Of a stretch of DNA of 64,000 nucleotides, positions 40,629-56,027 are shown in pieces. How positions within the stretch are numbered: position 1 is the first letter of the stretch; every line of letters starts with the position of its first letter. The translations under genes were made by a program, and so were the position numbers. Location of the stretch: contig JABLWW010000013.1 in assembly GCA_013178295.1 (NCBI GenBank), positions 62,001 through 126,000 on the forward strand, in the 5' to 3' direction. The notes under the pieces are model-generated. The model worked only from the letters and a program-made list of their open reading frames with translations. It was not told where the DNA came from and made no database searches. Source of the stretch: Anaerolineae bacterium (GTDB lineage Bacteria; Chloroflexota; Anaerolineae; Anaerolineales; Anaerolineaceae).

Positions 40629-41843
40629 TTATAGCGTATCTTCCCCATTTTTATTTGCGGAAAGAAAATCTCTGACCCGCTGCATGGCGGTTGAAATACG
40701 CTCTTCGGGCGTGCACAGCGAAAGACGCACGTAGCCTTGCCCGCCGCCGCCGTAAATGCTGCCGGGGGTGATGCTGACGCCGCAGTGCTCCAACAGACGG
40801 GCGCAGAAGCGCATATCGTCGCCGTAGCCGCCGGGCAAACGCGCCCAAACGTAGATGGCAGCGTGTGGCTTCTCGACGTTGAAGCCGCACGCCTGCAGGG
40901 AGTCAACCGCCAGGTCGCGGCGTTGCTGATAGATGCGGTTGCGGGCGTGTATCCACGAGAGGTCGCCCATCAGTGCGCTCGCAGCGGCTTCCTCGATGGG
41001 CAGAAAACCCGCCGAGTCCACCTGGCTTTTGTAAATTGCCAACAGACGGATGACCTGTGCATTCCCAACGACCATTCCCACCCGCCAGCCTGCCATGTTT
41101 GCCGTTTTGGAGAGCGAATTGAACTCCACCGCCACATCTTTTGCGCCGTCCACCTGCAGCAGGCTCGGAGCGCGGTAGCCGTCAAACCCCACTTCCATGT
41201 AAGGGGCGTCGTGTGCAATCAGCACGCCCCACTGGCGGGCAAAGGCAACCGCCTGCGCAAAGAAGTCCATTGTGGCAGCTGCGCCGGTGGGATTGTTGGG
41301 ATAGTTGAGCCATAGAATCTTTGCCCGCCGCGCAGCCTCCGGCGGGATGTCGTCCAGTCTGGGCAGCCAGCCTTGCTCTGCCCTCAGCCGCATGGGATAG
41401 ATTTCTGCCCCAGCAATTCTTCCCCCGGCGCTATAGACCGGATACCCTGGATCGGGGACGAGCGCCACATCGCCGGGGTTGAGCAGCGCCTGGCTGAGGT
41501 GAAAGACGCCCTCTTTGGCGCCGATGAGAGCAAGCACCTCACTTTCGGGGTTAAGCTCTACCCCAAAACGCTGGCGGTAGTATGTGCTGACCGCCCGGCG
41601 GAAGGCTGCCGAACCGCCAGAAGAGGCGTAGCCGTGCGCATCGGCGCGGCTGGCGCTTTCTATCAGCCGCTGGATGATGAAATCTGGCGGCGGCAGGTCG
41701 GGCGAACCGGCATCCAGCCGGATGACATCCATCCCTTGCGCTTTGAGCGTCTGGATGCGCCGGTTGAGGTCGGCAAAGAAGTAGGGCTTGAAGTCGTGGA
41801 TGCGCTGGGCGGGCTGGATTTTTTCGTCAAAAGCGCTCATCAT
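40629..41843 (-). CDS. PLP-dependent aminotransferase, class I (aromatic/aspartate or DapL-like)
   Basis: A 404-residue fold-type I aminotransferase. Visible features are LDAGSPDLPPPDFI near the N-terminus, YPNNPTG near 190 with the substrate-binding Asn, a DAPY motif and the PLP lysine in SLSKTANMAGWRVG, then SITPGSIYGGGGQGYVRLSL with the carboxylate-binding Arg. Its ATG overlaps the aroQ stop by 4 bp. In an operon that makes prephenate and its tyrosine branch product, the last transamination to Tyr or Phe is the logical job. Sequence alone also permits LL-diaminopimelate or aspartate aminotransferase. Confidence 0.85.
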   Translation of the reverse strand: MMSAFDEKIQPAQRIHDFKPYFFADLNRRIQTLKAQGMDVIRLDAGSPDLPPPDFIIQRLIESASRADAHGYASSGGSAAFRRAVSTYYRQRFGVELNPESEVLALIGAKEGVFHLSQALLNPGDVALVPDPGYPVYSAGGRIAGAEIYPMRLRAEQGWLPRLDDIPPEAARRAKILWLNYPNNPTGAAATMDFFAQAVAFARQWGVLIAHDAPYMEVGFDGYRAPSLLQVDGAKDVAVEFNSLSKTANMAGWRVGMVVGNAQVIRLLAIYKSQVDSAGFLPIEEAAASALMGDLSWIHARNRIYQQRRDLAVDSLQACGFNVEKPHAAIYVWARLPGGYGDDMRFCARLLEHCGVSITPGSIYGGGGQGYVRLSLCTPEERISTAMQRVRDFLSANKNGEDTL

Positions 41844-42310
41844 GTCTCCCGCAGGTGCGCGATTAACCCGTGCAGTCCCAGCAGATAACTGCGCGCCCCG
41901 AAACCGCTCACCTGCCCGATGCAGGCGGCGGCGATATAGGAGTGATGACGAAACGGCTCGCGGGCGTAAATGTTGGAGAGATGCACCTCCACCGCCGGAA
42001 ACCCCACGGCGCGCAGCGCGTCATGCAGGGCGATGCTGGTATGGGTGTATGCTCCGGCGTTGATCAGTGCCCCGTCTGCCCAGCCGATTGCCTGATGCAG
42101 CGCGTCGATCAGACTGCCCTCGTGGTTGCTTTGCAGAATGCGCAGTTCGGCGTTGTGTTTGCTTGCCTCCTCCTCCAGCATGGCGTTGATGCTCTCCAGA
42201 CTGGTTTTTCCGTAGTGCTGCGGTTCGCGGCTGCCCAGCAGATTGAGATTTGGTCCGTGCAGGATGAGGATGTGTAGGGTTTTGTCTTTTGGTGTGGATT
42301 TATTGTTCAT
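41840..42310 (-). CDS. aroQ: Type II 3-dehydroquinate dehydratase
   Basis: A 156-residue enzyme converting 3-dehydroquinate to 3-dehydroshikimate. Conserved features: ILHGPNLNLLGSREPQHYG with the catalytic Tyr, QSNHEGSLIDALH, INAGAYTHTSIALHDAL and VEVHLSNIYAREPFRHHSY. Length is usual for the type II family. The spacer to aroKB upstream is 88 bp and holds TATAAT near 42339, so an extra promoter is possible. The ribosome site is poor. Confidence 0.95.
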   Translation of the reverse strand: MNNKSTPKDKTLHILILHGPNLNLLGSREPQHYGKTSLESINAMLEEEASKHNAELRILQSNHEGSLIDALHQAIGWADGALINAGAYTHTSIALHDALRAVGFPAVEVHLSNIYAREPFRHHSYIAAACIGQVSGFGARSYLLGLHGLIAHLRET

Positions 42311-42398: not shown

Positions 42399-44009
42399 TC
42401 AGTCTTGGCAGGCGCCCATTTCCATTAAAACCTCGTAAACTACCTGCTGTGGCACGCCGTCTGCCACCTCCACCCTGCCTATCTCCAGCGGAAGCACCCA
42501 GCGCAAGCGGTTGTGTTTGCGTTTTTTATCCTGCTGCGCCGCTTCCAGGATGCTGTGGGCACTGTACTGCGCCGGGCAGCGCTGCGGCAGCCCGTAACGC
42601 GCCAGCACCTGCTCGATGCGCTGCGGCAAATGCGCTGAGGTCATCCCCAGCCGCTCCGCAATGCGCGCCGCAGCCACCATGCCAATGCTGACCGCCTCGC
42701 CATGCCGCAAACGATACCCGCTGAGCTTTTCGAGCGCGTGCCCCAGCGTATGCCCCAGGTTAAGCAGCGCCCGCCGCCCCTCTTCAAATGGGTCTTCTTC
42801 AACAATCTTGATCTTAACCCGCACGGCGCGCTCGATCCAATCCATCAACACAATATCGCCTTTGGTAAGCGCATCTAAAGTCAATGAACCGCGTTCAAGA
42901 TCATCAAACAAGGCACTGTCGGCAATGACGGCATGCTTGATCAACTCCGCCATTCCTGAGCGCAGTTCCTCCACTGCCAGCGTTTGCAGCACCAGCGGGT
43001 CAATCAGCACAGTGCGCGGCTGTTTGAACACACCCACCAGGTTTTTGCCCTGCGGCAAATCCACGCCGGTTTTACCGCCCACACTCGAATCCACCATTGC
43101 CAGCAGCGTGGTGGGTATCTGGATCAGTCCCACGCCACGCAGATACGTCCCAGCTGCCATCCCGGCAATGTCGCCGGTAACGCCCCCGCCCAGCGCCAGC
43201 ACGTAGCTGTGGCGGTCCATCCCGGCAGCGGTAAACTGGTCGTATAAAGCCGCCACTGTTTGCAGCGTTTTATGCTCTTCACCGTCCGGGATGCGGCAGG
43301 ATTGCAGCGCCTGATACCCCATGCGTTCCAGCGACTGGATAACACGTGCGGCATAGATATCCCCCACCACCGGGTTGGTTACCAGCGCCAGCGTGCTGGT
43401 CAAACGCACTTTTTCCCTGCGCAGCAATGCGCCAATGTGATCCAGAAGACCCGGCGCAATGTGAATCGTGTACGCCTCCGTAAAATAGCGCACCGGAAGA
43501 CTGCGCCGCAGCGCAACCGCCTCCACCTGCCGAACGGCTTCCTCCAGCGTCAGATGCGTGGTATCAATCTGCCAGGGGATGATGTCGTAGATGGGACGGC
43601 GCTCCTCCAGCAGCCGTTGGATCTCCGCCCGCCGGTTGGCAACCTCCAGCAGCGGGCGGTCATGACTGCCATCCAGGCGGTTCAGCAGTTCATCCACACT
43701 GCACTGCAAACAAATCAGGTCTGTCCGTTCCGCCAGGGCGGAATAATTGGCAGGGTCGAGCAACGCGCCGCCGCCCGCAGCGATCACCAACCCCTCACGC
43801 TCCGCCAGTTCGGCGCACAACGCCCGTTCGGCATGACGAAAGACCGCCTCACCATCTTCGGCAAAGATGCGCACGATCGGTTTGCCCAAACGGCGCGCAA
43901 TCTCAACATCCATATCCACAAAGGGACGTCCCAGCCTTTCGGCAGCCAGACGCCCAACGCTGCTCTTGCCGCTGCCCATAAACCCCGTCAGCACAATGCT
44001 GCGCGTCAA
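42399..44009 (-). CDS. aroKB: Shikimate kinase/3-dehydroquinate synthase fusion
   Basis: A 536-residue bifunctional enzyme. Shikimate kinase (about 1-165) has the P-loop GFMGSGKSS, FVDMDVEIARRLG and GGGALLDPANY. 3-Dehydroquinate synthase (about 175-530) has DGEEHKTLQT, GGGVTGDIAGMAAGTYLRG, VDSSVGGKTGVDLPQGKN and LGHTLGHALEKLSG with the zinc/NAD site residues. The two steps are not consecutive in the pathway, so the fusion serves co-expression rather than channelling. I set the start at TTG 44009, which overlaps the aroC stop (TTGA) and has GGAG 8 nt upstream; the longer open frame is only an aroC shadow. Similar aroKB fusions are known in Thermotoga. Confidence 0.93.
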   Translation of the reverse strand: MTRSIVLTGFMGSGKSSVGRLAAERLGRPFVDMDVEIARRLGKPIVRIFAEDGEAVFRHAERALCAELAEREGLVIAAGGGALLDPANYSALAERTDLICLQCSVDELLNRLDGSHDRPLLEVANRRAEIQRLLEERRPIYDIIPWQIDTTHLTLEEAVRQVEAVALRRSLPVRYFTEAYTIHIAPGLLDHIGALLRREKVRLTSTLALVTNPVVGDIYAARVIQSLERMGYQALQSCRIPDGEEHKTLQTVAALYDQFTAAGMDRHSYVLALGGGVTGDIAGMAAGTYLRGVGLIQIPTTLLAMVDSSVGGKTGVDLPQGKNLVGVFKQPRTVLIDPLVLQTLAVEELRSGMAELIKHAVIADSALFDDLERGSLTLDALTKGDIVLMDWIERAVRVKIKIVEEDPFEEGRRALLNLGHTLGHALEKLSGYRLRHGEAVSIGMVAAARIAERLGMTSAHLPQRIEQVLARYGLPQRCPAQYSAHSILEAAQQDKKRKHNRLRWVLPLEIGRVEVADGVPQQVVYEVLMEMGACQD

Positions 44010-45136
44010 CGCATCATCTCCTGCAGCGAATCGCCGCCCAGCTTCTCCACCAGCGCCTCCGCCAGCGTCCAGGCAAGCATGGCTTCGCCCACCACTGCCG
44101 CCGCCGGTACAACGCAAATATCCGAGCGCTGATACTGCGGCTCAGCCGCCTCACCGCTGAGCAAATCCACCGAGCAGTGCGGCGTTCCCGTCGTGGGAAT
44201 GGGCTTGATCGCAGCCCGCACGCGCAGCGGCGCGCCGTTGCTCATCCCGCCTTCAGTCCCTCCAGCGCGGTTGGTGCGCCGCAGCACGCCCCCTTTGCCG
44301 TCCGGATACAAATCGTCATGCACACGCGTGCCCGGCAAGCCTGCATTGGCAAACGCCTCGCCAATCTCAACCCCTTTTACCGCAGGAATGGACATCATCG
44401 CCAGCGCCAGACGGGCATCCAGACGGCGATCCCAGTGGACATGGCTGCCCAGTCCCACCGGGACGCCGCAGGCAGAAACCACAAACACCCCGCCCAGACT
44501 GTCCTTGCTGCGCCGTGCGGCATCCACCGCAGCGCGCATGCGTTCCGCCGCGTCAGGATCAGGGCAGCGCACATCGCTGGCTTCTGCCAGTTCCCAGCGT
44601 CGGCGCTCAACGGCTTCCAGGGTATCATCCGACGGGTCAGACAAATCGGCGCGCACATCGCCAATCTGTTCCACATAGCTGCCCAGTTCAACCCCAAAGG
44701 CTGCCAGAAGCTGGCGCGCCACCGCACCCACCGCCACGCGGGCAGTCGTCTCGCGGGCGCTGGCGCGCTCCAGCACCAGACGGGCATCTTCGAGACCATA
44801 TTTGACCATCCCAGCATAATCAGCATGCCCCGGACGCGGCACCGTCAGACGCGGCAGGTCGCCGCTCGCCCAGCGTTCGCTCCAGTTTTTCCAGTCTTTG
44901 TTTTCAATCCGCAATGCCAGCGGCGCGCCGGTTGTTTTGCCATACAGCACCCCTGCCAGCAGTTCGACCCGATCCTGCTCGATGTTCATGCGGTGACCGC
45001 GCCCATAGCCCCTTTGGCGGCGCGCCAGATGTTGGTTGATCTGCTCCACATCCACTTGCAGACCAGCAGGCAGCCCCTCGATGATTGCCATCAAACATGG
45101 CCCATGCGATTCGCCAGCGGTGAGAAAACGCAGCAC
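44006..45136 (-). CDS. aroC: Chorismate synthase
   Basis: A 376-residue FMN-dependent enzyme making chorismate from EPSP. Typical motifs: GESHGPCLMAIIEGLPAGL, RRQRGYGRGHRMNIE, RPGHADYAGMVKYG, ARETTARVAVGAVAR and RTNRAGGTEGGMSNG. It stops overlapping the aroKB start and begins 6 bp after aroE, so translation is closely coupled. Confidence 0.96.
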   Translation of the reverse strand: MLRFLTAGESHGPCLMAIIEGLPAGLQVDVEQINQHLARRQRGYGRGHRMNIEQDRVELLAGVLYGKTTGAPLALRIENKDWKNWSERWASGDLPRLTVPRPGHADYAGMVKYGLEDARLVLERASARETTARVAVGAVARQLLAAFGVELGSYVEQIGDVRADLSDPSDDTLEAVERRRWELAEASDVRCPDPDAAERMRAAVDAARRSKDSLGGVFVVSACGVPVGLGSHVHWDRRLDARLALAMMSIPAVKGVEIGEAFANAGLPGTRVHDDLYPDGKGGVLRRTNRAGGTEGGMSNGAPLRVRAAIKPIPTTGTPHCSVDLLSGEAAEPQYQRSDICVVPAAAVVGEAMLAWTLAEALVEKLGGDSLQEMMR

Positions 45137-45142
45137 AGCCGT

Positions 45143-46027
45143 TTACCTCCCCAGCCTTTCTAAACAGGCAGCCCGCATCGTCTGCACCGGCGCCGGTTTG
45201 CCTGTCCAGAATTCAAACGCCAGCGCGCCCTGCTGCACCAGCATTTCCAGACCGTCAACACCGCGCGCCAGCGAGGCGCGCGCCTGCTGCAAGAGGCGCG
45301 TGCTGCGCGGGTTATACACCAGGTCAAAAACCACCAGATGCCCAGGAACGGGCGCCTTGTCAGGCCAAACGCTTTTATCCACGTTGGGCATTGTCCCCAC
45401 CGGCGTGGCGTTGACCAGCAAACTGGCAGTTTGGGCAAGTTCCACCAGCGCATCATCCGAGAGCGCCAGGGCATGCACCTCTGTCGTCGCGGTATCCTGC
45501 GCGGCTGTCAGTTCCTGTACCAGCAAGCGGGCGCGTTCTTCATTGCGGTTGAGCACGTACACCTCTTTGAGGTTCATTTTCATCAAGCTGGAAAGCACCG
45601 CCCGCGCCGCGCCGCCTGCACCCACAATGATGGCACTGTCGCTGCTGCCAAAATGAACACCGACACGATGCAGCGCATCAATAAACCCCTCTTCATCGGT
45701 GTTTTCGCCATACATGTGTGTCTTGCCATCGGCAGTGCGCTGAAAGAAGATGGTGTTAACCGCCCCCAGTGCACGCGCATTGGGCGATACCGAATCGAGC
45801 AGCGGAATGACCGCCTGTTTATGTGGAATGGTTACATTTACCCCGCGAAATCCCAGTGCAACCAAACCGCGCAGGGCATCTTCCAGTTTCTCCGGCGGGG
45901 TCGGCAAAGGAACATAACACCAATTCAGCCCCGCCTCCGAAAAGGCAGCATTCTGCATGGCAGGAGAGAGGCTGTGCTCAACAGGCCAGCCAATCAAACC
46001 GGTAAGTTGTGTGCGACCATCAATCAT
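45143..46027 (-). CDS. aroE: Shikimate dehydrogenase
   Basis: A 294-residue NADP-dependent enzyme reducing 3-dehydroshikimate to shikimate. Substrate motif GWPVEHSLSPAMQNAAF near 14, NVTIPHKQAVIP with the catalytic Lys near 70, and the nucleotide loop VGAGGAARAVLSSL with VLNRNEERA. The start overlaps the aroA stop by 8 bp. The C-terminus shows the usual GLEMLVQQGALAFEFWTG region. Confidence 0.95.
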   Translation of the reverse strand: MIDGRTQLTGLIGWPVEHSLSPAMQNAAFSEAGLNWCYVPLPTPPEKLEDALRGLVALGFRGVNVTIPHKQAVIPLLDSVSPNARALGAVNTIFFQRTADGKTHMYGENTDEEGFIDALHRVGVHFGSSDSAIIVGAGGAARAVLSSLMKMNLKEVYVLNRNEERARLLVQELTAAQDTATTEVHALALSDDALVELAQTASLLVNATPVGTMPNVDKSVWPDKAPVPGHLVVFDLVYNPRSTRLLQQARASLARGVDGLEMLVQQGALAFEFWTGKPAPVQTMRAACLERLGR

Positions 46028-47315
46028 ATTGTGCTCCTATCGTGCGCATCAGGTTGACAAACCCGGGAAACGAGTCTTCAGCACAATCTATATCGTCAAT
46101 GACCGTCTCGCCGCTGGCGATCAGCCCCGCCACCGCCAGCGCCATTGCCAGACGGTGATCGCCGTGGCTGCTGACGTGTGCGCCGCGCAGAGGTGTCGCA
46201 CCTTCGACAATAAAGCCGTCCGGCAGGGTTTCAACCCTGGCGCCCATTGCCTGCAATTCCGCCGCAGCAGTGGCAATGCGGTCGGTCTCCTTGACCCGCA
46301 GTTCGGCTGCGTCGCGCACCACCGTAACACCCTGCGCCTGCGTGGCAGCTACCATGAATATCGGAAATTCGTCTATCATGCGCACCACGGTCTCACCGCC
46401 CACCTGTGTCCCCCGCAGCGTTGAACTGGATATCGTGAGATCGGCTGTCGGCTCGCTTCCCTGAAAATGTACTTTTCCTATTTTAACCGCAGCGCCCATG
46501 ATTTGCAAAACATCCAGCAGCCCGGTGCGGGTGGGATTGACGCCCACATCTTTGAGCGTCAACTCAGATTGGGGCGCGAGCAGCGCCGCCACAAGCGGAA
46601 AAGCCGCTGAGGAAATATCACCGGGAATGCGCAGAGGAAGGGCGTGCAGCGCTTGACCGGCTTCTATCTGAACCGTGTTGCCATCGCTATGGATGGCTGC
46701 ACCCATCGCCTGCAACATGCGTTCGGTGTGGTCGCGTGAAGGTCCAGGCTCATGCACACGGGTTATCCCTTCGGCAAACAAACCAGCAAGCAGCAAAGCG
46801 CTCTTCACCTGAGCGCTGGCAATCTCCAGTTGGTGATCGCAGCCACGCAAGGCGCGGGCACAGATTTTCAACGGGGCGCGCCCATCCTGGCTTTCGATAT
46901 GTGCCCCCATGCGCTGCAGCGGATCAATCACACGCCGCATGGGGCGGCGGCGCAGCTGTTCCTCGCCATCCAGCAGGCTGTCAAAACGCTGCCCGGCAAG
47001 GATACCCGCCAGCAAACGCATGGTCGTGCCCGAGCGCACGCAGTTCAAAGCGCCCTGTGCTGGCTGCAAGCTATGCAAACCGCGCCCGCGCACGATCAGT
47101 TCGGTGGGGCGGATCGTCTCAATTTCCACTCCCATCGCCCGCAGGCAAGCAAGGGTTGCCATGCAGTCGCCGCCCGGCAGGAAGTTGGTAACGTGTGTTT
47201 CTCCCAGCGCCAGCGCCCCAAACAGCAAGGCACGGTGTGAGATGGATTTATCGCCTGGCAGCGAGACACAGCCATTGAGCTTTTTACCCGGATGCACGGT
47301 TAGAGATTTCATCAT
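46020..47315 (-). CDS. aroA: 5-Enolpyruvylshikimate-3-phosphate synthase
   Basis: About 431 residues. It joins shikimate 3-phosphate and PEP. Conserved: SLPGDKSISHRALLFGAL with the catalytic Lys, LRSGTTMRLLAGILAGQ, RRRPMRRVIDPL, DEFPIFMVAATQAQG, ELRVKETDRIA and GDHRLAMALAVAG. The residue after the first Gly in the inhibitor-sensitive LRSGTTMRL loop is Thr-Thr rather than the LGNAGTAMRP of plant-type enzymes, as in class II EPSP synthases. The start could be ATG 47315 or 47312, or GTG 47336 next to the tyrA stop; GAGG fits 47312-47315. Confidence 0.94.
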   Translation of the reverse strand: MMKSLTVHPGKKLNGCVSLPGDKSISHRALLFGALALGETHVTNFLPGGDCMATLACLRAMGVEIETIRPTELIVRGRGLHSLQPAQGALNCVRSGTTMRLLAGILAGQRFDSLLDGEEQLRRRPMRRVIDPLQRMGAHIESQDGRAPLKICARALRGCDHQLEIASAQVKSALLLAGLFAEGITRVHEPGPSRDHTERMLQAMGAAIHSDGNTVQIEAGQALHALPLRIPGDISSAAFPLVAALLAPQSELTLKDVGVNPTRTGLLDVLQIMGAAVKIGKVHFQGSEPTADLTISSSTLRGTQVGGETVVRMIDEFPIFMVAATQAQGVTVVRDAAELRVKETDRIATAAAELQAMGARVETLPDGFIVEGATPLRGAHVSSHGDHRLAMALAVAGLIASGETVIDDIDCAEDSFPGFVNLMRTIGAQYD

Positions 47316-47336: not shown

Positions 47337-48197
47337 TCACACCGCCAGCCCGCTGCGGCACTGCTGGCACTGGTTAAGGATGCGGCGCAGACCATCCTCA
47401 TCTTCGCGCTCAATCAGCGCCACCAGGTCATTGAGCTGCACGCGGTAAATGGAAAGCGAACGCAGGATGGCTTCGCGGTTGGTCAGGAGAATATCCAGCA
47501 TCATTTCCACATTGCTGGCTGCCAGGCGCGAGGTATCGCGAAACCCGCTGGCAGCCAGGTTCCACACTTTATCCTCCACAGCTGCGCCCATCTGCGCCGC
47601 CGCCACCAGACTGCACGCCAGCAGATAGGGCAGATGGCTGGTCATGGCAACCACACGGTCATGGCGTTCTGCGTCCAGCAGCATGGGGTGCGCCCCAATA
47701 GCTTTCACCATAGCGTGCGCCAGGTCAAGCGTCTCCCCAGAAGTCCTTTCCAGTGGGGTGAGGACAAAGGCATTGCCGCGATAAAGCAGCGCGTCCGCCG
47801 CGGCAATACCGGAAGTTTCACGCCCACACATGGGATGCCCGCCCAGCGGCTGAAAATGCTGCGGCAGGCTTTGCATCTTGGCAACCACGCGCGCTTTGGT
47901 ACTGCCCAGGTCCATCACCACACAGGCATGATCAATCAGCGGCACAATATCATCCAGCAAACGCAGGATGGTGCGCACCGGTGTTGCCAGAATCACCATG
48001 TCCGCCCCGCGCACGCCATCCGCCAGGTCGGTGGTAGCGCGGTCCACCAGACGGCGCGCCATGGCAATCTCATTGGTTTCCACATCCCGATCCACACCCA
48101 CCAGCAGACAGCCGCAGGAACGCAGTGCCCCCGCCAATGAGCCGCCCATCAGCCCCATCCCCACAATGGTGATCTTCAAATTGCGCAGGTCAATCAT
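47337..48197 (-). CDS. tyrA: Prephenate/arogenate dehydrogenase
   Basis: A 286-residue NAD(P)-dependent enzyme. Rossmann motif [19 protein letters not shown] near 11, [14 protein letters not shown] and the active-site [12 protein letters not shown], followed by helical dimerisation sequence ([20 protein letters not shown]). It gives the tyrosine precursor from prephenate. There is no chorismate mutase or ACT domain fused to it. The start overlaps the aroF stop by 4 bp. Confidence 0.94.
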
Positions 48198-49207
48198 AGT
48201 TCCCTCCCCACCGCCGCTGCTACGGAGCGAACACTGTTTATCAGGGTGCTAAACTTTGCCGGTTTGAGCGACTGCGCCCCGTCCGAAAGCGCCTGCTCAG
48301 GGTGCGGGTGCACCTCAATAATCAACCCATCAGCGCCCGCCGCCACAGCCGCCCGCGAAAGCGGCTCGACCAGTTCCCATTTGCCCGTCCCATGACTGGG
48401 ATCAACAATCACCGGCAGATGGGTCAGTTGTTTGAGCAGCGGCACGGCACTGATATCCAGTGTGTTGCGGGTATAGGTCTCAAAGGTACGGATGCCGCGC
48501 TCGCAGAGGATCACCTGCGCATTGCCGTGCGAAAGGATATATTCGGCTGCCATGAGCAGTTCTTCGATGGTGGACATCAGCCCGCGCTTGAGCAGCACCG
48601 GGCGTCCCATCTCACCCAGCAGGTGCAGCAGGGCAAAGTTCTGCATATTGCGCGCTCCCACCTGAAGAATATCAGCATACGCCGCCACGAGCGGCACCAT
48701 CTGCGGGTCCATCACCTCGGTAACCACCGGCAAGCCGGTCATCTCGCGCGCCTCTGCCAGCAGCCGCAAACCTTCCTCACCCAACCCCTGAAAGCCATAG
48801 GGTGAGGTGCGCGGCTTAAACGCCCCGCCGCGCAGAATATGCGCCCCAGCATCCTTGACCGCCGCGGCAGTTTCCATCAGCTGTTCACGGCTTTCCACCG
48901 CACACGGTCCCGCCATCACCACCACCCGCTGGTTGCCAATGGTGACATCGTTCACCACCACGCGGGTATCATCCGGGTGAAACTCACGGCTGGCAAGCTT
49001 GAACGGCTTGCTGACCAGCAGGGTATGTTCCACGCCATCCATCATCTCGATCTGCTCGCGGTTGATTTTGCGCACATCGCCGATAATCCCGATGACCGAA
49101 CGTTCCTCGCCCAGCGAGGTGTGCGGCTGGCAGCCCATCTGCACGATGCGCTCCACCACACTGTCAACCTGCTCCTGCGTAGCTTCATGTTTCATCACGA
49201 CAATCAT
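48194..49207 (-). CDS. aroF: DAHP synthase, type I-beta with N-terminal regulatory domain
   Basis: A 337-residue enzyme for the first committed step (PEP plus erythrose 4-phosphate). The N-terminal 70 residues form a ferredoxin/ACT-like domain ([33 protein letters not shown]), which in Thermotoga mediates Tyr/Phe feedback. The barrel begins about residue 85 with [49 protein letters not shown] and [15 protein letters not shown]. Feedback on the enzyme and attenuation of the mRNA would then respond to the same amino acids. AGGAGG precedes the ATG. Confidence 0.95.
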
Positions 49208-49231
49208 TGCTCCTCCTGCAAAAAAAGATGA

Positions 49232-49597
49232 TTACTGTTCGACAAGATCGGGGCGCAGGCGAGTTGCCTCACCCAGATAAATATGCTTGACCTGCCCCTG
49301 CGGCAAGTGGGTATTCCACAAAATCAGAACGCGGATGCAGCGCGGCAGGCTGGCGGGCACGTTCATCTCCTGGGCGCACATCAGCGGCACATGCGCCCAG
49401 CCCATCTCACGCGCTGCCCGCGCCGGATAGACGGCGTCCAGATCGGACGTGGCGGTAAAATACACACAGGCAATGTCCTCGCTGTCCATCTGGTTTGCCG
49501 CAACCATGCGCTCCAAAAGCAGACGCGTAGCAGTCAGAATCTCCTCCTCCCGGTTGTTTTCCACGCTGATGGCACCGCGCACTCCTCTTGTGGTCAT
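49232..49597 (-). CDS. aroH: Chorismate mutase, AroH type
   Basis: A 121-residue monofunctional chorismate mutase of the Bacillus AroH family: RGVRGAISVENNREEEIL at the N-terminus with the active-site Arg, DIACVYFTATSDLDAVYPARAAR and HLPQGQVKHIYLGEAT. I place the start at ATG 49597, with AAAGGA 10 nt before it; the open frame runs further into the leader and terminator. It is the first structural gene of the operon, just after the attenuator. Confidence 0.93.
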   Translation of the reverse strand: MTTRGVRGAISVENNREEEILTATRLLLERMVAANQMDSEDIACVYFTATSDLDAVYPARAAREMGWAHVPLMCAQEMNVPASLPRCIRVLILWNTHLPQGQVKHIYLGEATRLRPDLVEQ

Positions 49598-49664
49598 GTC
49601 TCTCGTTTCCTTTCCGTCTTGGGCAAACCTACCTGTTTTGCGTCCAAACCCAGAATTAATCAAA

Positions 49665-49691
49665 AAACGTGGAGCAGGTTGCTCCACGTTT
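49665..49691 (-). terminator. Attenuator terminator in the aromatic operon leader
   Basis: On the minus strand a 12-bp GC-containing stem (49691-49680 with 49676-49665) and a 3-nt loop end in a run of six T residues (49667-49662). It lies about 65 nt before aroH and after the leader peptide stop. Its 5' arm can alternatively pair with 49760-49749. Confidence 0.85.
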
Positions 49692-49766
49692 GGGTGATCT
49701 TCTGGTCTGATTGGGAACTTGCCTATCCCTCGAATGACCTCACGCCGCCATGAAGCAACCTTCGTG
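49677..49766 (-). promoter_or_regulatory. Attenuator: protector hairpin and antiterminator pairing
   Basis: Three exclusive RNA pairings can be drawn on the minus strand. Protector: CACGAAG (49766-49760) with CUUCAUG (49755-49749), one mismatch. Antiterminator: GGUUGCUUCAUG (49760-49749) with CGUGGAGCAACC (49688-49677), 12 continuous pairs including two G-U. Terminator: the hairpin at 49691-49665. The second uses the loop and 5' arm of the third, and the first hides the 5' strand of the second. This is the trp/phe-type attenuator logic. Confidence 0.8.
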
Positions 49767-49815
49767 CCGGTGTAAAGTAAAAATAGAAATAAAAGGAATA
49801 GGCTTTGTTGAACAT
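49723..49815 (-). CDS. Phe/Tyr-rich leader peptide of the aromatic operon
   Basis: A 30-codon frame from ATG 49815 to TAG 49723. Residues 5-14 read AYSFYFYFYF: four Phe and four Tyr codons within nine codons (49800-49774). The peptide is otherwise without meaning as a protein (it ends RSFEG). It starts about 25 nt after the predicted transcription start. Its coding region includes the antiterminator arm. The codon run is followed after 13 nt by that arm, so a ribosome stalled for lack of Tyr-tRNA or Phe-tRNA would leave the arm free to pair. A proper Shine-Dalgarno is not evident, a point against strong translation. Confidence 0.85.
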   Translation of the reverse strand: MFNKAYSFYFYFYFTPARRLLHGGVRSFEG

Positions 49816-49846
49816 AAAATACGAATTTTGTGGTAAATTTCGCCGT

Positions 49847-49875
49847 ATTATATGTGTGCTTGTTCGATTTGTCAA
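49847..49875 (-). promoter_or_regulatory. Consensus promoter of the aromatic operon
   Basis: Minus strand: TTGACA (49875-49870), 17-nt spacer, TATAAT (49852-49847). Both hexamers are exact consensus, the best promoter seen in the window. It would start transcription near 49840 and give a leader of about 240 nt before aroH. Confidence 0.85.
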
Positions 49876-49935
49876 TAGAAAAACGGGATCATTTCTTAAT
49901 TCTTTACAGCATGTTAACCCAGCAGGAGTGAGACC

Positions 49936-50763
49936 ATGATCGTTGCATTTCAGGGTGAGCCGGGCGCGTATTCCGAATCTGCCATCTATGAGCACTACGG
50001 CGAAAGCGTGCAGACTTTGCCACAGGAAAGTTTTGACGCTGTTTTTGCTTCTGTAGTCGAAGCGCGCAGCGATGCGGGCTTCATCCCCATCGAAAACTCG
50101 CTGGCAGGCAGCATCCACCGCAACTATGACCTGCTGCTACAGCACGACCTATGGGTGGTGGGCGAACATTATCTGCCTGTACATCACTGCCTCATCGCCC
50201 GTCCCGGTGCAGCGCTCAAAGACATCCGCCGCGTCATCAGCCATCCGCAGGCGCTGGCGCAATGCGAGCGCCGTCTGCGAACAATGGGAGTAACCACCGA
50301 GCCGGTCTACGATACTGCTGGCAGCGTCAAGATCATCAGCCAGCAGGATGACAATTCCACCGCTGCCATCGCCTCACGCCGTGCCGCCCATCTCTACGGA
50401 ATGAAGATTCTGGCAGAGAACATCGAAGATAACCCCAACAACATCACCCGTTTTTTGATCATCGCCCGCCAGCCAGTGCAGCCGCAGGGCGAAGCCAAGA
50501 CCTCCATTGTTTTCACCCTCAAAAACGTGCCGGGGTCGCTTTTTCGAGCGATGAGCGTCTTTGCCCTGCGTGACATTGACCTGACCAAGATCGAGTCGCG
50601 CCCGCTGATCGGCGTGCCGTGGGAATACCAGTTCTACATTGATTTTGCCGGTTCAACGCAGGATGGCGTGGTGCAGCGGGCGCTGGCGCACCTGCAGGAA
50701 TACGCCCTCACCCTGCGCGTGCTGGGGTCATACCCGCGCAGCGAGAGCCGACAGCAGCCCTAA
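49936..50763 (+). CDS. pheA: Prephenate dehydratase with ACT domain
   Basis: A 275-residue monofunctional enzyme turning prephenate into phenylpyruvate. Catalytic domain: FQGEPGAYSESAI, FIPIENSLAGSIHRNYDLLL and the DTAGSVKIISQQ region with TRFLIIAR. The ACT domain (about 190-270) has KTSIVFTLKNVPGSLFRAMSVFALRDIDLTKIESRPL, the ESRP motif that binds Phe for feedback inhibition. It is divergent from the aromatic operon and has AGGAG 7-8 nt before ATG. The two transcription units share an intergenic region in which their upstream boxes may overlap. Confidence 0.95.
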   Translation: MIVAFQGEPGAYSESAIYEHYGESVQTLPQESFDAVFASVVEARSDAGFIPIENSLAGSIHRNYDLLLQHDLWVVGEHYLPVHHCLIARPGAALKDIRRVISHPQALAQCERRLRTMGVTTEPVYDTAGSVKIISQQDDNSTAAIASRRAAHLYGMKILAENIEDNPNNITRFLIIARQPVQPQGEAKTSIVFTLKNVPGSLFRAMSVFALRDIDLTKIESRPLIGVPWEYQFYIDFAGSTQDGVVQRALAHLQEYALTLRVLGSYPRSESRQQP

Positions 50764-52244
50764 AGCCCCTCCCACACCTGACGCGCCACATCTTCAAAGG
50801 CGTAAAACTCTTCCAGGCTGCGCTGAGCGACCATCGCACTGTACTGTTCGAGTTCGGCTTCCAAACGCGGGTCAAGCTGCACCGGCTGATGTTTTGCCAG
50901 CACATCACGCACGCGTTGTTTTGCCATCTTCAGCGCCGAGCGGCTGCCTTCTTTCACCCAGGCGTCATAAGGTTCACGCCGCGCCAGGCGCGGGATATAG
51001 TGCTCGCTGCGGTAATGTCGCACGGTGTGCTCCTCAGCCAAGTAGTTGCCCGCATAGCCAATCCTGCGGATCAGGTCAAGCGCCAGCGTCTCCTCGTTAA
51101 CCTCAATCCCGCGCTCCATGCGCAGCAGTGCGCCGCACAGTTCATCATCCAGCAGCAGCATGGCTTCGCTTTCCAGCATGGTACTGTCCAGCGTCCCGCC
51201 GCAGGTGATCAAATCCACGCCTGCCAGCACCGCTGCCGCCAGCGTCTGGGTGCGTTCCATCCCCGCCTGAACATCTTCCAGCTTGGATTCGGTCGCCGCG
51301 CCAACACTGCGGCAGGGCAAGCCATAGTGGCGCGCCAGCTGGGCAGAGGCAGCCGTAATCAACCCTGTTTCCACCGCTCCCAGCGCCACCGTCCCATGCC
51401 GCATGTTGGCAATCGTCGAAACCGTGCCATACAACACCGGCGTGCCCGGGCGGTAAAGCTGCGCCAGGGTGATGTGCGCCAGAATGGCGGCGTTCTCCTG
51501 TGCCAGCAACCCGGCAAGCGTGGCAGGGGCAGTCGCCCCAGCGATAGCTTCCGGCGAGGTTGCCAGCGGCTGTCCGTATTCAGCGCAGATCAACAGCCCT
51601 TCGGCTTGCATCTGCGCCATCTGCAGCGGGCTGTGCACCGAGCAGATCGCCAAAAAGCGCGGTCTGCGGCGCATCTCCTCCTTTCCGCCCACCAGCAAAG
51701 CCGTCATGCGCATCATATCCAGGGTCGGCAGATAGCCGTAGCACCCCATCCCATAGGTCTTGCGGCTGTTGCGCGCCCATGCCAGAATGGACTGGGTATG
51801 GATGGTGGTCATGGGGATATCGTTTGGCCAGATATCCATTTGCGAATTGTGGATGAAATCACAGCTGTCAATTAGTTTGATATGACGCACCACATCCTGC
51901 ATGGTTGTCGGACGCACCTCCCCGCTTTCCAGGTCAATGATGCGCGTTGGCGTTCCCAGCCCGGCAAAATGCGGCAGGCTGCCGCCAATCTCGATATGAA
52001 AATTACCGTCAGCGCCATACATGGTAAAAGCACGCGGCGCTTGTGCCAGCGCCCGCCGCACCAGGCTCTCCGGCAGACGCACACAGCAGGCAGCATCATC
52101 CACCTGCGCCCCGCCTTCAGCAAAAATCTGACGCGCTTTTTGGTATTCCACCTTCAATCCCACCTCTGCCAGGATGCACATCGAAGCGGCATGGATGGTT
52201 TCAATCTCGGACGGGCTGAGCACTTCAAAACGGCTGGTTTTCAC
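50760..52244 (-). CDS. MttB-family corrinoid methyltransferase without pyrrolysine
   Basis: A 494-residue protein of the trimethylamine methyltransferase (MttB) superfamily: LSPSEIETIHAASMCILAEVGLKV at the start, then HIEIGGSLPHFAGLGTPTRI, PVLYGTVSTIANMRHGTVALGAVETGLI and AGMERTQTLAAAVLAGVDLITCGGTLDSTML. The archaeal enzymes have an in-frame UAG for pyrrolysine; here the reading frame has none, so it belongs to the non-Pyl branch that demethylates glycine betaine, proline betaine, carnitine or similar quaternary amines. The substrate is not deducible. It starts with GTG, overlapping the stop of the LuxR-type regulator by 4 bp (GTGA), with GGAGG upstream. No own corrinoid protein is adjacent. 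Confidence 0.9.
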   Translation of the reverse strand: MKTSRFEVLSPSEIETIHAASMCILAEVGLKVEYQKARQIFAEGGAQVDDAACCVRLPESLVRRALAQAPRAFTMYGADGNFHIEIGGSLPHFAGLGTPTRIIDLESGEVRPTTMQDVVRHIKLIDSCDFIHNSQMDIWPNDIPMTTIHTQSILAWARNSRKTYGMGCYGYLPTLDMMRMTALLVGGKEEMRRRPRFLAICSVHSPLQMAQMQAEGLLICAEYGQPLATSPEAIAGATAPATLAGLLAQENAAILAHITLAQLYRPGTPVLYGTVSTIANMRHGTVALGAVETGLITAASAQLARHYGLPCRSVGAATESKLEDVQAGMERTQTLAAAVLAGVDLITCGGTLDSTMLESEAMLLLDDELCGALLRMERGIEVNEETLALDLIRRIGYAGNYLAEEHTVRHYRSEHYIPRLARREPYDAWVKEGSRSALKMAKQRVRDVLAKHQPVQLDPRLEAELEQYSAMVAQRSLEEFYAFEDVARQVWEGL

Positions 52245-52903
52245 CTTTCCTCCGGCTGCACCAGACCCTGACGGATGGCATAGTATGCCGCCTGGGTGCG
52301 GTTTTCAAGATGTAGTTTGGCTAAGATATTGCTGATATGCTTGGTAACGGTGCGTTCGCTGATGTTCAGCCGTCTGGCAATTTCCTGGTTGCTCCAGCCC
52401 AGCGCCACCACACGCAGCACCTCAATTTCACGTTCGGTAAGATGCTGTTGTCCGGCTCCAGCGCGCTCCTCGCCCGCCGGTTGATAGCTTTTCATCAGCT
52501 TGATAAGGATTTCGGGCTGCATCACCGCCTGATGGCGGTACACTTTGCGCACCGCTTCGACCAGTTCTTCGGGGGAAGAATCTTTAAGCAAATACCCCAT
52601 CGCCCCCGCCTGGATGGATTGCAGCACACGCTGGTCATCCCCAAAGCTGGTCAACACCAGAATGCGCGCCTGGGGGTTTTGCTGAACGATCTCGCGCGTC
52701 GCCTGGACGCCATCCTTGCGCGGCATGAGCAGGTCCATCAGGATCACATCCGGCAGCAGCGCCAGCGCCTTCTCCACCGCTTCGATGCCGTTGACTGCGG
52801 TTGCCACCACCTCCATGCCAGCCTCACTGGAGAGCATGGTCATCAGACCCTCGCGCACCACCGGATGGTCATCTGCGATCAAGATACGAATTGGTTCTGA
52901 CAT
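52241..52903 (-). CDS. NarL/LuxR-type response regulator
   Basis: A 220-residue regulator: receiver with IADDHPVVREGL, phosphoacceptor in VILMDLLMPRKDG and the GYLLKDSSPEEL lysine; LuxR helix-turn-helix LTEREIEVLRVVALGWSNQE with SERTVTKHISNILAKLHL. Upstream on the same strand is a HisKA_3 kinase (stop 169 bp before), its likely partner, and downstream the MttB-type gene overlaps by 4 bp, so the methyltransferase may be a target or simply co-expressed. GAGGGAGAG precedes the ATG and TAATAT is found about 40 nt upstream. Confidence 0.93.
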   Translation of the reverse strand: MSEPIRILIADDHPVVREGLMTMLSSEAGMEVVATAVNGIEAVEKALALLPDVILMDLLMPRKDGVQATREIVQQNPQARILVLTSFGDDQRVLQSIQAGAMGYLLKDSSPEELVEAVRKVYRHQAVMQPEILIKLMKSYQPAGEERAGAGQQHLTEREIEVLRVVALGWSNQEIARRLNISERTVTKHISNILAKLHLENRTQAAYYAIRQGLVQPEER

Positions 52904-53072: not shown

Positions 53073-56027
53073 TCACAGCCTGACGTGCACCTTGACGCGT
53101 GTGCCCTTGCCAGCCCTGGAATCAATGACCAGCTGGCTGCCCAGTTTTTTGGCGCGCTCGCGCATGCTGGTGATGCCCAGCCTGCCGTCTTCACCCAATG
53201 CCGCGGGGTTAAATCCGTTGCCGTTGTCGCTGATTTCCAGCACCACCGCCCCAGTTTGTTTGCGCAGGTGAATCTCAACGCGTGTGGCTTCGGCATGTTT
53301 CAGAATGTTGTTCAACGCCTCCTGAGCGATGCCATACAGCTCACTTTCGATCCATGCCGGAATCTCAAGGTCTTCATCCACTTGCAGCAGCGTCTTGATC
53401 TCAACCCGCCCTTCGACCGCCTCCAGCCTGCGGCGCAGCGCCCCCACCAGCCCATCCTGTTCGAGCGTGTGCGAGCGCAGGTTATAGAGCAGCAAACGCA
53501 TCTCCTTGAGCGCCTGGTTGGCAATGCTGCCAGCGCGCTCCAGCCAGTAAGCCACCTCGTCGCCCGAAGCTTCTCTCAGCTTGCGCTGCCAGCCGCGCGT
53601 CAGCAGGGTCAGACTGTAAAGATACTGGGTGATCGAATCGTGCAATTCGCGCGCCAGGCGGTGACGCTCCTCCATCACTGCCGCTTCCTGTGCATGCTCG
53701 CGCAGCCGGGCGCTCTCCAGCGCCGCCGCCACCTGATCGGCAATCGCCGAGAGCAGGGTCAACTGCTCCAATTTGAGCTGCGCCACGTTCTCCTGCAGCA
53801 GGCTGAAAACCCCCAGCAGCTGCCCGCCGATGCGCATGGGAACGCCGATGTACGCCGGGTAGCGGCAATACAAATCCGCAGGCCAGCCGGAATCGGCGCC
53901 CAGATCGGAGATGAGCAGCGGGTCAAAACGCCCATACACCTTGCCCAGCGGGCTGTCCTCCCACACCAGCACACGGATCGCCTCAAGCGCCGCAGGGGGA
54001 ACATTACACTGCTGCGCCAGGTAAAATGTCCTGCCATCCTTGGCGAGCAGATGTACAAAACCCGTCGCGCTGCCCATCACGTCCATCATCTTCTCCAGCG
54101 ACATTTGCAGAATTTCGTCCACCCCCAGCGAGCGGATGGTCATTGCAGCCACCTCATACAAAGCTTCCAGTTCGCGCGTGCGGTCTCTTACCCGCTGCTC
54201 CAGCATTTCCATAAAACGCGAGCGCTCCATAGCGGCCGCGATCATCTGCGCCGCCACCTCCAGCAAGCCAATTTCTTCTGTCCCCTCTTCCAGGTTCAGG
54301 GCGATTTCTTCAAATGCCAAAAACCCGACGATGCCGGGCGAATCCGCAAAGTGCAGATAGGCATTGATCGGCTGAAAGAGCAGATTGTTTGGCTTTTCCT
54401 CGTTGTGCAGGGCAGCTCCAAAAAAGTCTTTTGGCAAGCGTTGTAATTCATCCCCCTTGAGATACATACGCTGTCCGGTTTTGAGCGGCAGCAGACAGGA
54501 CGGCAAAGCCTGCGCCGCCATCTGCGAAGTTTGTTTGAGACGGGTGGTGAACAAGCCCTGCTGCCAGATATGCGTGCAAACAAAAGTGCCGCCATATTCC
54601 TGAGCGGCATAGAACAAAATGCGTTTTGCCCCTGTCAGCGAGCCAAGCAGTTGCAGCACCGCGCCAACAGCTGTGCCAAATTCATCGTTGCGGATAAAAT
54701 GTGCTGAAATTTCAGCCACAATGCGCTCATGCTGCAGCCGCCGACTGAGCTGCTGTTCAACCGTTTTGCGGGCGCCAATCTCTTCGGTCAGCTGGCGGGT
54801 ACGGGTTGCCACACGCGCTTCCAGTTCCAAATTCATTTGCTGCAGAGCGCTTTGGGCATTTTTTTCCTCGCTGATATCGCGCACAATACAGCCTATCTGA
54901 TAACCGCGTTCGGTGGGAATGCAAAAGTAACGCTCCTGGATAAAACGCATACCAGATTCAACCGGTCCGCGCAACAGGGCAGGCAGCTCGATTTCCCACA
55001 GCCTCCCCAGCAAATCGCCGCTGCCGCTTTTCAAAACCGCCAAAAGCTTCTCCTTGCCTTTCTGGCTCTGCAGCCCGGTCACATCATCCTCGCCCAGATA
55101 CTCCGCGCGCACCTCCCAAAGCGGATGCCCCAGCACGGCTTCGCTTTTTAGACCGCTGATGTCCTCCTGAGCACGATTCCACACGATGACATTCCCATTC
55201 ACATCCACCAGAAACATGCCGTCTTGCGATTGCTCAATAAAGCTGCGAAAACGTTGTTCCGTTTCCAGCAGCTTGATTTCGGTCTTTTTGCGGTCGGTGA
55301 TCTCGCGGTTGCTAAAGCGCCGTCCCAGATACCCTTTCTGTGCATCGAATACCGGGCGGCTCTGGCTGTTCACCCAGTGAATATGCCCATCGCGGGTAAC
55401 AATCCGAAAATCAATCGAGGACAGATTGTAATATTCCAGTTCTTCGGCAACATGCGCCAGCACGCGTTTGCGGTCTTCGGGATGAATAATCCTTTCAAAA
55501 AGTAAGGGATCGCTCATAAACTCCTCTGCCGCATAACCAGTGATACGCTTGCAGGCATTAGAGACATACAACAGGTCGCCGTTCGGCGAAAGCCAATACT
55601 CCCAGTCATAGGTAAAATCAATCAAAATACGGAAGCGTTTTTCGCTTTCCTCAAGGGCGTGCAGCAGTTCTTTGTGGGTGGTGATGTCGTGCAGCGTCAC
55701 CAGAAAACACGCCTCGCCCTGCAAATGAATCGCTGCGGTGTGCACTTCACAAAGAGCCTGAACGCCGTCCGGACGTACCACCCACTGTTCAATGGTCTTG
55801 CCTGGCTCACAAGCAAAAGCCAAAGGGGTACCGCACAGCGCTTCCAACGGTCTGCCTAAGATACGCTCCGCCGCCGGGTTCACCAGACGGACAACCCCGC
55901 CTGCATCCAGAATCAACAGCGGGTTAGGAGACTGATAAAAAAGGCTTTGCAAATATTCCGCAGGGGCTGGAGAAAAAGACGGCACTTCCAACCCCTGTTG
56001 CCTACGCGTCTTTGGACGAGTTTTCAC
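53073..56027 (-). CDS. PAS-GAF sensor histidine kinase, HisKA_3 type
   Basis: A 984-residue soluble kinase: three PAS domains (about 30-130, 135-260 and 270-400), GAF (about 435-590), GAF (about 625-770), HisKA_3 with RELHDSITQYLYSLTLLTRG and HATPase_c with QEALNNILKHA, SDNGNGFNP and LGITSMRERAKKLGSQL. It starts with GTG at 56027, 26 bp inside the end of the HD-GYP gene. The cognate regulator is most likely the LuxR-type gene 170 bp downstream. Two GAF domains suggest small-molecule or redox ligands; none can be named. Confidence 0.92.
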   Translation of the reverse strand: MKTRPKTRRQQGLEVPSFSPAPAEYLQSLFYQSPNPLLILDAGGVVRLVNPAAERILGRPLEALCGTPLAFACEPGKTIEQWVVRPDGVQALCEVHTAAIHLQGEACFLVTLHDITTHKELLHALEESEKRFRILIDFTYDWEYWLSPNGDLLYVSNACKRITGYAAEEFMSDPLLFERIIHPEDRKRVLAHVAEELEYYNLSSIDFRIVTRDGHIHWVNSQSRPVFDAQKGYLGRRFSNREITDRKKTEIKLLETEQRFRSFIEQSQDGMFLVDVNGNVIVWNRAQEDISGLKSEAVLGHPLWEVRAEYLGEDDVTGLQSQKGKEKLLAVLKSGSGDLLGRLWEIELPALLRGPVESGMRFIQERYFCIPTERGYQIGCIVRDISEEKNAQSALQQMNLELEARVATRTRQLTEEIGARKTVEQQLSRRLQHERIVAEISAHFIRNDEFGTAVGAVLQLLGSLTGAKRILFYAAQEYGGTFVCTHIWQQGLFTTRLKQTSQMAAQALPSCLLPLKTGQRMYLKGDELQRLPKDFFGAALHNEEKPNNLLFQPINAYLHFADSPGIVGFLAFEEIALNLEEGTEEIGLLEVAAQMIAAAMERSRFMEMLEQRVRDRTRELEALYEVAAMTIRSLGVDEILQMSLEKMMDVMGSATGFVHLLAKDGRTFYLAQQCNVPPAALEAIRVLVWEDSPLGKVYGRFDPLLISDLGADSGWPADLYCRYPAYIGVPMRIGGQLLGVFSLLQENVAQLKLEQLTLLSAIADQVAAALESARLREHAQEAAVMEERHRLARELHDSITQYLYSLTLLTRGWQRKLREASGDEVAYWLERAGSIANQALKEMRLLLYNLRSHTLEQDGLVGALRRRLEAVEGRVEIKTLLQVDEDLEIPAWIESELYGIAQEALNNILKHAEATRVEIHLRKQTGAVVLEISDNGNGFNPAALGEDGRLGITSMRERAKKLGSQLVIDSRAGKGTRVKVHVRL

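Follow-up and report, generated by a model that had tools for sequence, protein, structure and literature searches.

The window, a stretch of 64,000 nucleotides of Anaerolineae DNA, carries ahead of aroH on its minus strand an element that, judging by its sequence, is very probably a trp/phe-type attenuator, in which a translating ribosome controls transcription. All five components can be seen in the window: a promoter, a leader ORF, and segments forming a protector (1:2), an antiterminator (2:3) and a terminator (3:4). The arrangement is kept and covaries in several orders and in one or more additional classes. A sequence-only reading of this DNA had proposed a Phe/Tyr ribosome-mediated attenuator here, and the proposal is supported as by far the best fit, given that leader, terminator and covarying stems are kept in relatives.

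Promoter, leader and operon in the window

The element begins with a sigma-70 promoter (TTGACA-17-TATAAT, 49875-49847, minus strand) that matches the consensus at 12 of 12 positions. It is followed by a leader ORF of 30 codons (MFNKAYSFYFYFYFTPARRLLHGGVRSFEG; 49815-49723, minus strand), assigned as such from the reading frame and from the aromatic leaders with terminators kept in relatives. The regulatory codon run YSFYFYFYF (49800-49774, minus strand) was recognized from the sequence and from the positional enrichment of aromatic codons in relatives; it holds four Tyr and four Phe codons among nine, the leader has no Trp codon, and the run ends 13 nt before antiterminator arm 2. An intrinsic terminator with a T run (49691-49662, minus strand; stem 49691-49665, 12 pairs, loop of 3) lies between the leader ORF and aroH, approximately 65 nt upstream of the latter. 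The sequence-only reading had claimed the consensus promoter, the 30-codon leader with its four Phe and four Tyr codons, the 13-nt distance, the terminator and a 12-pair antiterminator with two G-U pairs, and all of these were borne out.

The alternative structures of the leader RNA were compared by folding energy, as that reading had suggested. The protector element (49803-49721, minus strand, -33.8 kcal/mol) consists of an outer helix (49803-49793 with 49731-49721), in which the AYS codons pair with the leader stop region, and of an inner hairpin (49777-49738, -18.5 kcal/mol) that holds arm 2. A protector had been predicted and exists, not as the single hairpin described but as these two parts. 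The antiterminator is a duplex of 12 bp, two of them G-U (-21.9 kcal/mol), between arm 2 (GGTTGCTTCATG, 49760-49749, minus strand) and arm 3 (CGTGGAGCAACC, 49688-49677, minus strand), with arm 3 being part of the terminator 5' arm and loop; the antiterminator consequently excludes the terminator (-17.6 kcal/mol), an arrangement backed by covariation in relatives. Free leader RNA (49841-49655) folds at -57.1 kcal/mol as protector plus terminator, 5.2 standard deviations below the average for 200 dinucleotide-shuffled sequences, and no shuffle folded equally well. Forcing the 2:3 pairing costs approximately 12 kcal/mol (-42.1 vs -54.0 kcal/mol for 49840-49660), and the antiterminator would therefore need the help of a ribosome.

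Nine genes follow the leader on the minus strand with gaps of up to about 90 nt, their identities assigned by Pfam: aroH, chorismate mutase type I (49232-49597; PF07736, CM_1, 6.2e-47); aroF, DAHP synthase with a ferredoxin-like domain (48194-49207; PF00793, DAHP_synth_1, 9.1e-86, and PF18152, FXD, 9.8e-23); tyrA, prephenate dehydrogenase (47337-48197; PF02153 and PF20463); aroA, EPSP synthase, with a start chosen by us (46020-47309; PF00275, 6.4e-121); aroE, shikimate dehydrogenase (45143-46027; PF08501); aroC, chorismate synthase (44006-45136; PF01264, 2.9e-117); a fused aroK-aroB (shikimate kinase and DHQ synthase) of uncertain start (42399-44015; PF01202, PF01761 and PF24621); aroQ, type II dehydroquinase (41840-42310; PF01220, 2.8e-58); and, as the last gene of the set, a class I/II aminotransferase (40629-41843; PF00155, 1.3e-59). 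As in attenuators of the trp/phe type, the end products of the operon, Phe and Tyr, are matched by the codon run in a short leader ORF. Terminator-like sites within the operon were not in excess (8 on both strands vs 7.5 in shuffles), and upstream of pheS of the window genome no Phe-rich leader ORF passed.

Divergent from the operon lies pheA, for which the PDT domain was found by Pfam and the ACT domain scored slightly below the cut-off, whereas at three other loci (L031, L051 and L059) ORF tails resembling the PheA C-terminus were seen by eye directly upstream of the leader on the same strand. Also by eye, the region is flanked by two large ORFs resembling sensor histidine kinases (36798-40607 and 53073-56027, on the minus strand in both cases), and a response-regulator-like ORF is found at 52241-52903.

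Conservation and covariation in relatives

Relatives were searched for a leader with at least five aromatic residues in nine codons and a terminator 5-90 nt downstream, using settings of our own that were fixed after a first look at the data. Within the order of the window genome, CM_1 (AroH) was present in 164 of 301 genomes, and 147 loci from 146 genomes (one genome twice) were examined; a class-level sample (CM_1 in 172 of 249 genomes) gave 73 loci outside the order, and a sample with other classes (127 of 251 genomes) gave 60 loci in those classes, with loci chosen by score rank and partly picked for spread over families. The aromatic leader with terminator was found before aroH at 130 of the 147 loci of the order, so that the objection anticipated by the sequence-only reading, that close relatives might have no leader ORF or terminator, does not apply. 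Outside the order the element was detected at 58 of the 73 loci from the rest of the class and at 16 of the 60 from other classes, bringing the total to 204 loci with at least two arm designs. Controls for the order were low (reverse complement, 2/147; dinucleotide shuffles, 2/735; first 450 nt of aroH, 0/147), as were shuffles for other orders (0/365) and other classes (1/300). In other classes the element occurred in family 80 (10/14), family 90 (3/3), families 116 and 119 (1/1 each) and, doubtfully, family 103 (1/5); it was absent from the remaining families examined, such as family 85 (0/12). The leader/terminator pair was not detected at L032, a relative in a Dehalococcoidia metagenome-assembled genome (51% identity), nor was the element found at any of 14 aroH loci of other phyla.

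The distribution of the element follows aroF, not aroH. Among the 17 loci of the order at which it was missed before aroH, three carry it before aroF (L053, where aroF is first in the operon, and L104 and L161, where aroF is divergent from aroH), nine have aroH without DAHP synthase in the stretch examined, two have their upstream region cut off, and three retain half of the pair (two leaders without a recognized terminator, one terminator without a leader). In a family-level search, the DAHP synthase domain was found in 24 of 61 genomes (28 loci), and 22 of these loci have the element before aroH or aroF. At four of the 22 it stands directly before aroF (L314, L316, L320 and L327): in L314 and L320 aroF is ahead of aroH, while a single genome has L316 and L327 as a tandem pair of aroF genes, both of them preceded by an element of their own. 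No element was detected at six of the 28 loci (L311, L313, L317, L324, L325 and L326), including L313, which has only 80 nt upstream, L324, whose gene is interrupted by stops, and the second copies L325 and L326.

The leaders and terminators of L316 and L327 are very similar, as if the attenuator had been duplicated along with the gene. A group of f13 aroH loci (L007, L009, L027, L067-L069, L072 and L103) has neither DAHP synthase in the stretch examined nor a leader, and genome G133 contains both kinds of aroH, one with a leader (L004) and one without (L068).

The sequence-only reading had suggested a search in relatives for conserved leaders and covarying stems, and both are present. The antiterminator arms vary by lineage yet stay complementary: GGTTGCTTCATG pairs with CGTGGAGCAACC in the window; L305, the nearest relative examined, has GGTTTGCTTCATG with CGTGGAGCAAACC, one extra matching base on both arms; most of the order has GCCGTTGG in arm 2 with CCAACGG in arm 3; f14/g53 has GCTGTTAG with CTAACAG; and family 90 has TTGTCGCT with AGCGACAA. 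Arms were compared using one randomly chosen locus per genus or family. In 57 genera, own 2:3 arms paired at -17.4 kcal/mol compared to -15.0 kcal/mol for swapped arms (0 of 10,000 permutations), and swaps within the same family were also weaker (-15.4 kcal/mol). For another set, comprising 37 families outside the order, the values were -21.4 vs -17.0 kcal/mol (0 of 10,000); these permutations keep relatedness in, so that the statistic is not free of kinship. Own arms were better than the median arm of another family in 42 of the 57 genera. The strength of the signal is uneven. Shuffled versions of arm 2 served as the control, and z < -2 was reached in 31 of 57 genera and in 25 of 37 families, the window standing at z = -4.2. 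Placement of the antiterminator arm inside the leader coding region had been called unusual, but the arm overlaps the end of the leader ORF in most relatives compared.

The 1:2 protector excludes the antiterminator and involves the codon run. Its arms likewise pair better with their own partners than when swapped (-11.5 vs -10.1 kcal/mol, 0 of 10,000 permutations), and a test with a short arm 1 gave z < -1 in 41 of 57 genera, being weak for the window (-4.6 kcal/mol). Codon usage left a related trace: TAC encodes the final Tyr of the run in 82 of 88 leaders but accounts for 21 of 69 and 27 of 90 Tyr codons at the two preceding positions. This is the pattern expected if the protector forms and the final Tyr codon also pairs in its stem. 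A Gly follows the aromatic run in 100 of 130 leaders, which would be explained by the ability of TAC GGY to pair with GCCGT of arm 2; the window, with its different arm 2, has Phe and Thr where relatives have Tyr-Gly.

The absence of a clear ribosome site before the leader had also been regarded as unusual; instead, leaders without a Shine-Dalgarno sequence are typical of the order. Over the same span of bases, a Shine-Dalgarno-like tetramer was present ahead of the leader ATG at 9 of 130 loci of the order, compared to 127 of 130 ahead of aroH. Promoters scoring at least 6.5 were found upstream of 120 of the 130 leaders compared to 2 of 130 shuffled sequences. Of the 125 leaders for which a good promoter was identified, 90 have their ATG 4-14 nt downstream of the end of the -10 box, most commonly at exactly 10 nt (63 leaders). 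Predicted transcripts therefore begin at the ATG or a few bases before it, and a leaderless start of leader translation is predicted, leader starts being taken as the nearest in-frame ATG. The window leader, with 31 nt from -10 box to ATG, is one of a minority whose 5' UTR is longer. Outside the order, the 4-14 nt spacing occurs in 8 of 60 leaders and a Shine-Dalgarno-like site in 24 of 74.

Modeled ribosome stalling and the amino acids probably read

In the proposed mechanism, a shortage of charged tRNA-Phe or tRNA-Tyr would stall the ribosome in FYFYFYF, where it would cover arm 1 and leave arm 2 free to pair with arm 3, allowing RNA polymerase to enter the operon. With both charged tRNAs plentiful, the ribosome would run on, the protector fold would hold arm 2, and arm 3 would pair with arm 4 to stop transcription; in relatives, on average, a ribosome at the leader stop codon would also bar arm 2 from arm 3. 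Translation of the leader would not depend on a Shine-Dalgarno site; most relatives within the order would begin it close to the 5' end of the predicted RNA.

This was modeled by masking the ribosome footprint codon by codon and computing the fraction of arm 3 paired with arm 2 in 57 genera (54 at codon -12). The mean fraction was 0.31-0.58 for stalls at codons -12 to -9, 0.55-0.70 at -8 to -1 and 0.37-0.49 at 0 to +3 (0.49 at 0), compared to 0.12 at the leader stop, 0.13 at +5 and 0.17 when no ribosome was placed. Most aromatic codons occupy positions -7 to 0, and in silico, stalling on the aromatic run favors the antiterminator. The model itself lacks codon specificity, predicting antitermination also for most early codons of the window leader.

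For the window, the modeled fraction was about 0.9-1.0 while the ribosome stood on the run and dropped to 0.0 immediately beyond it. With the ribosome at the stop codon it was 0.8-1.0 (0.88), unlike the mean of 0.12 for relatives; the last base of this stop codon lies 26 nt past arm 2. In the model, a ribosome parked there would not keep arm 2 from arm 3, and repression would therefore need its release and refolding of the RNA before the polymerase has cleared the terminator. The protector may have time to refold because release is rapid; otherwise the window should show more basal readthrough than elsewhere. Formation of the antiterminator after ribosome release from the stop codon is treated in a section of its own in PMC1183508, as seen from the part of that paper available, and release is therefore a recognized issue.

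Summed over the 130 leaders, the last ten codons comprise 431 Tyr, 393 Phe and 50 Trp, with both Tyr and Phe found at every position from -7 to 0 and Trp at codon -7 in 34 leaders. This composition suggests that Phe and Tyr are probably read jointly, and Trp may be a third input where the run has a Trp codon. The N-terminal domain of anthranilate synthase component I (TrpE) was detected in 96 of 301 genomes of the order, and no match was found in the window genome (97.8% complete). Among genomes at least 90% complete, a Trp codon was present in the run in 37 of 66 with TrpE compared to 8 of 38 without (Fisher p = 5e-4), an association carried by family f12 (p = 0.005 alone; rest, p = 0.47). 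When permuted within genera over all 130 leaders it disappeared (40 observed vs 38.7 expected, p = 0.27), although permutation inside families gave p = 0.003, and the link between Trp codon and TrpE is for this reason treated as a hypothesis. A search for Trp-rich leaders before trpE gave distant matches, more than 1,200 nt away and therefore discounted, at 2 of 30 loci; 7 of the 30 had a shortened upstream region and an estimated position. As a tentative possibility, the element may be an ancient Chloroflexota sensor for the common pathway that reads Phe and Tyr jointly, and Trp too in Trp-making lineages, through one leader whose codons were retuned with the aromatic end products and which became near-leaderless in one order.

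A real attenuator could also sense one amino acid in practice, Phe or Tyr, the remaining codons being retained through descent or because they are needed for RNA pairing. This possibility, which partly coincides with the main reading, is rather unlikely: Tyr and Phe codons each occur at every position from -7 to 0, the operon includes tyrA, and chorismate mutase supplies both the Phe and the Tyr branch. In its favor, the final TAC codon seems constrained by RNA pairing, and the AroR leader of Corynebacterium glutamicum, containing Phe-Tyr-Phe, responds to Phe and not to Tyr according to the accessible part of PMC11802643.

The hydrophobic aromatic run before a common Gly (100/130) would also suit a nascent peptide that arrests the ribosome from within the exit tunnel, as TnaC does, instead of codon reading. 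We consider this very unlikely, as the order of Phe, Tyr, Trp and Ala is variable and the common Tyr-Gly can be explained by pairing of TAC GGY with GCCGT, the window having Phe-Thr instead. That the ORF is conserved and aromatic might further indicate a working small protein followed by a plain 5' UTR terminator, but the peptide outside the run differs among families (by eye), the 3' codons of the leader track arm complementarity, and terminator and arm 2 change together, making this explanation highly improbable. A T-box, a riboswitch or some other RNA element in the leader is scarcely credible, even with tyrosine genes being under T-boxes in other species (PMC1262725, in the portion available): against Rfam with E up to 1, window positions 49000-50500 matched only FsrA (E = 0.26; 20 bits vs a cut-off of 80), with no T-box and no amino-acid leader model, and at gathering thresholds two sets of 15 and 14 relative loci gave only a tmRNA and a tRNA.

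Relation to known attenuators and significance

The ribosome-mediated attenuator proposed here can be set beside several known systems. The E. coli trp attenuator follows a four-segment logic (1:2, 2:3 and 3:4) with Trp codons in a leader led by a Shine-Dalgarno sequence; the arms of the window fit this logic, but 122 of 130 leaders of the order have no Shine-Dalgarno-like site. In C. glutamicum, the ilvBNC attenuator is said (Morbach et al. 2000) to have a leader peptide formed without a ribosome binding site, a feature that it would share with the present leaders, while it differs in serving branched-chain amino acids and in belonging to another phylum. The pheL and pheST leaders of E. coli contain Phe codons only. 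E. coli pheA (pheL) and pheST resemble the window in having a leader peptide and attenuation by Phe-tRNA charging (PMC11802643, in the portion available), and differ in controlling a terminal-branch gene or a tRNA synthetase as opposed to the common pathway.

The AroR/aroF attenuator of C. glutamicum, reportedly described by Neshat et al. in 2014, is a precedent for a leader with two aromatic amino acids before DAHP synthase, for which the sequence-only reading had known of none. In the available parts of the sources, AroR has Phe-Tyr-Phe ahead of the DAHP synthase gene and its transcription responds to Phe, not Tyr (PMC11802643), and the aroF leader is listed in PMC4046766. Like AroR, the window leader combines Phe with Tyr codons ahead of DAHP synthase, and the ribosome-mediated attenuation reported there is proposed here. 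They differ in that AroR has three aromatic codons in the motif where the window has 8 of 9, in phylum, and in that the window has a nine-gene shikimate-to-tyrosine operon while AroR was reported to respond to Phe only.

According to a 2010 paper, leader peptide systems other than that of ermC had until then been demonstrated in Proteobacteria and Actinobacteria alone, its own Firmicutes cases extending this range (PMC2965389); histidine leaders in Firmicutes were added later, in a text whose available part names Chloroflexi only in a reference (PMC9413887). The portions available of two further sources state that no conserved structures were found for Phe or Tyr operons of Actinobacteria (PMC1262725) and that Chloroflexi were among the groups with too few genomes to judge (PMC4833913). 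No report of such an attenuator in Chloroflexota was found among the open papers searched, and no model for it was found in Rfam.

Overall, this is an attenuator of a known kind, widely conserved and unreported for its phylum in the searchable literature, and it places codon-sensing attenuation in a phylum for which openly readable papers gave no report. Control would sit at the entry of the shikimate pathway and not at a terminal branch. One leader reading two, or three, amino acids raises the question of how a ribosome integrates several shortages, and the 204 loci with at least two arm designs form a comparative set for the evolution of attenuators and for leaderless translation of regulatory ORFs.
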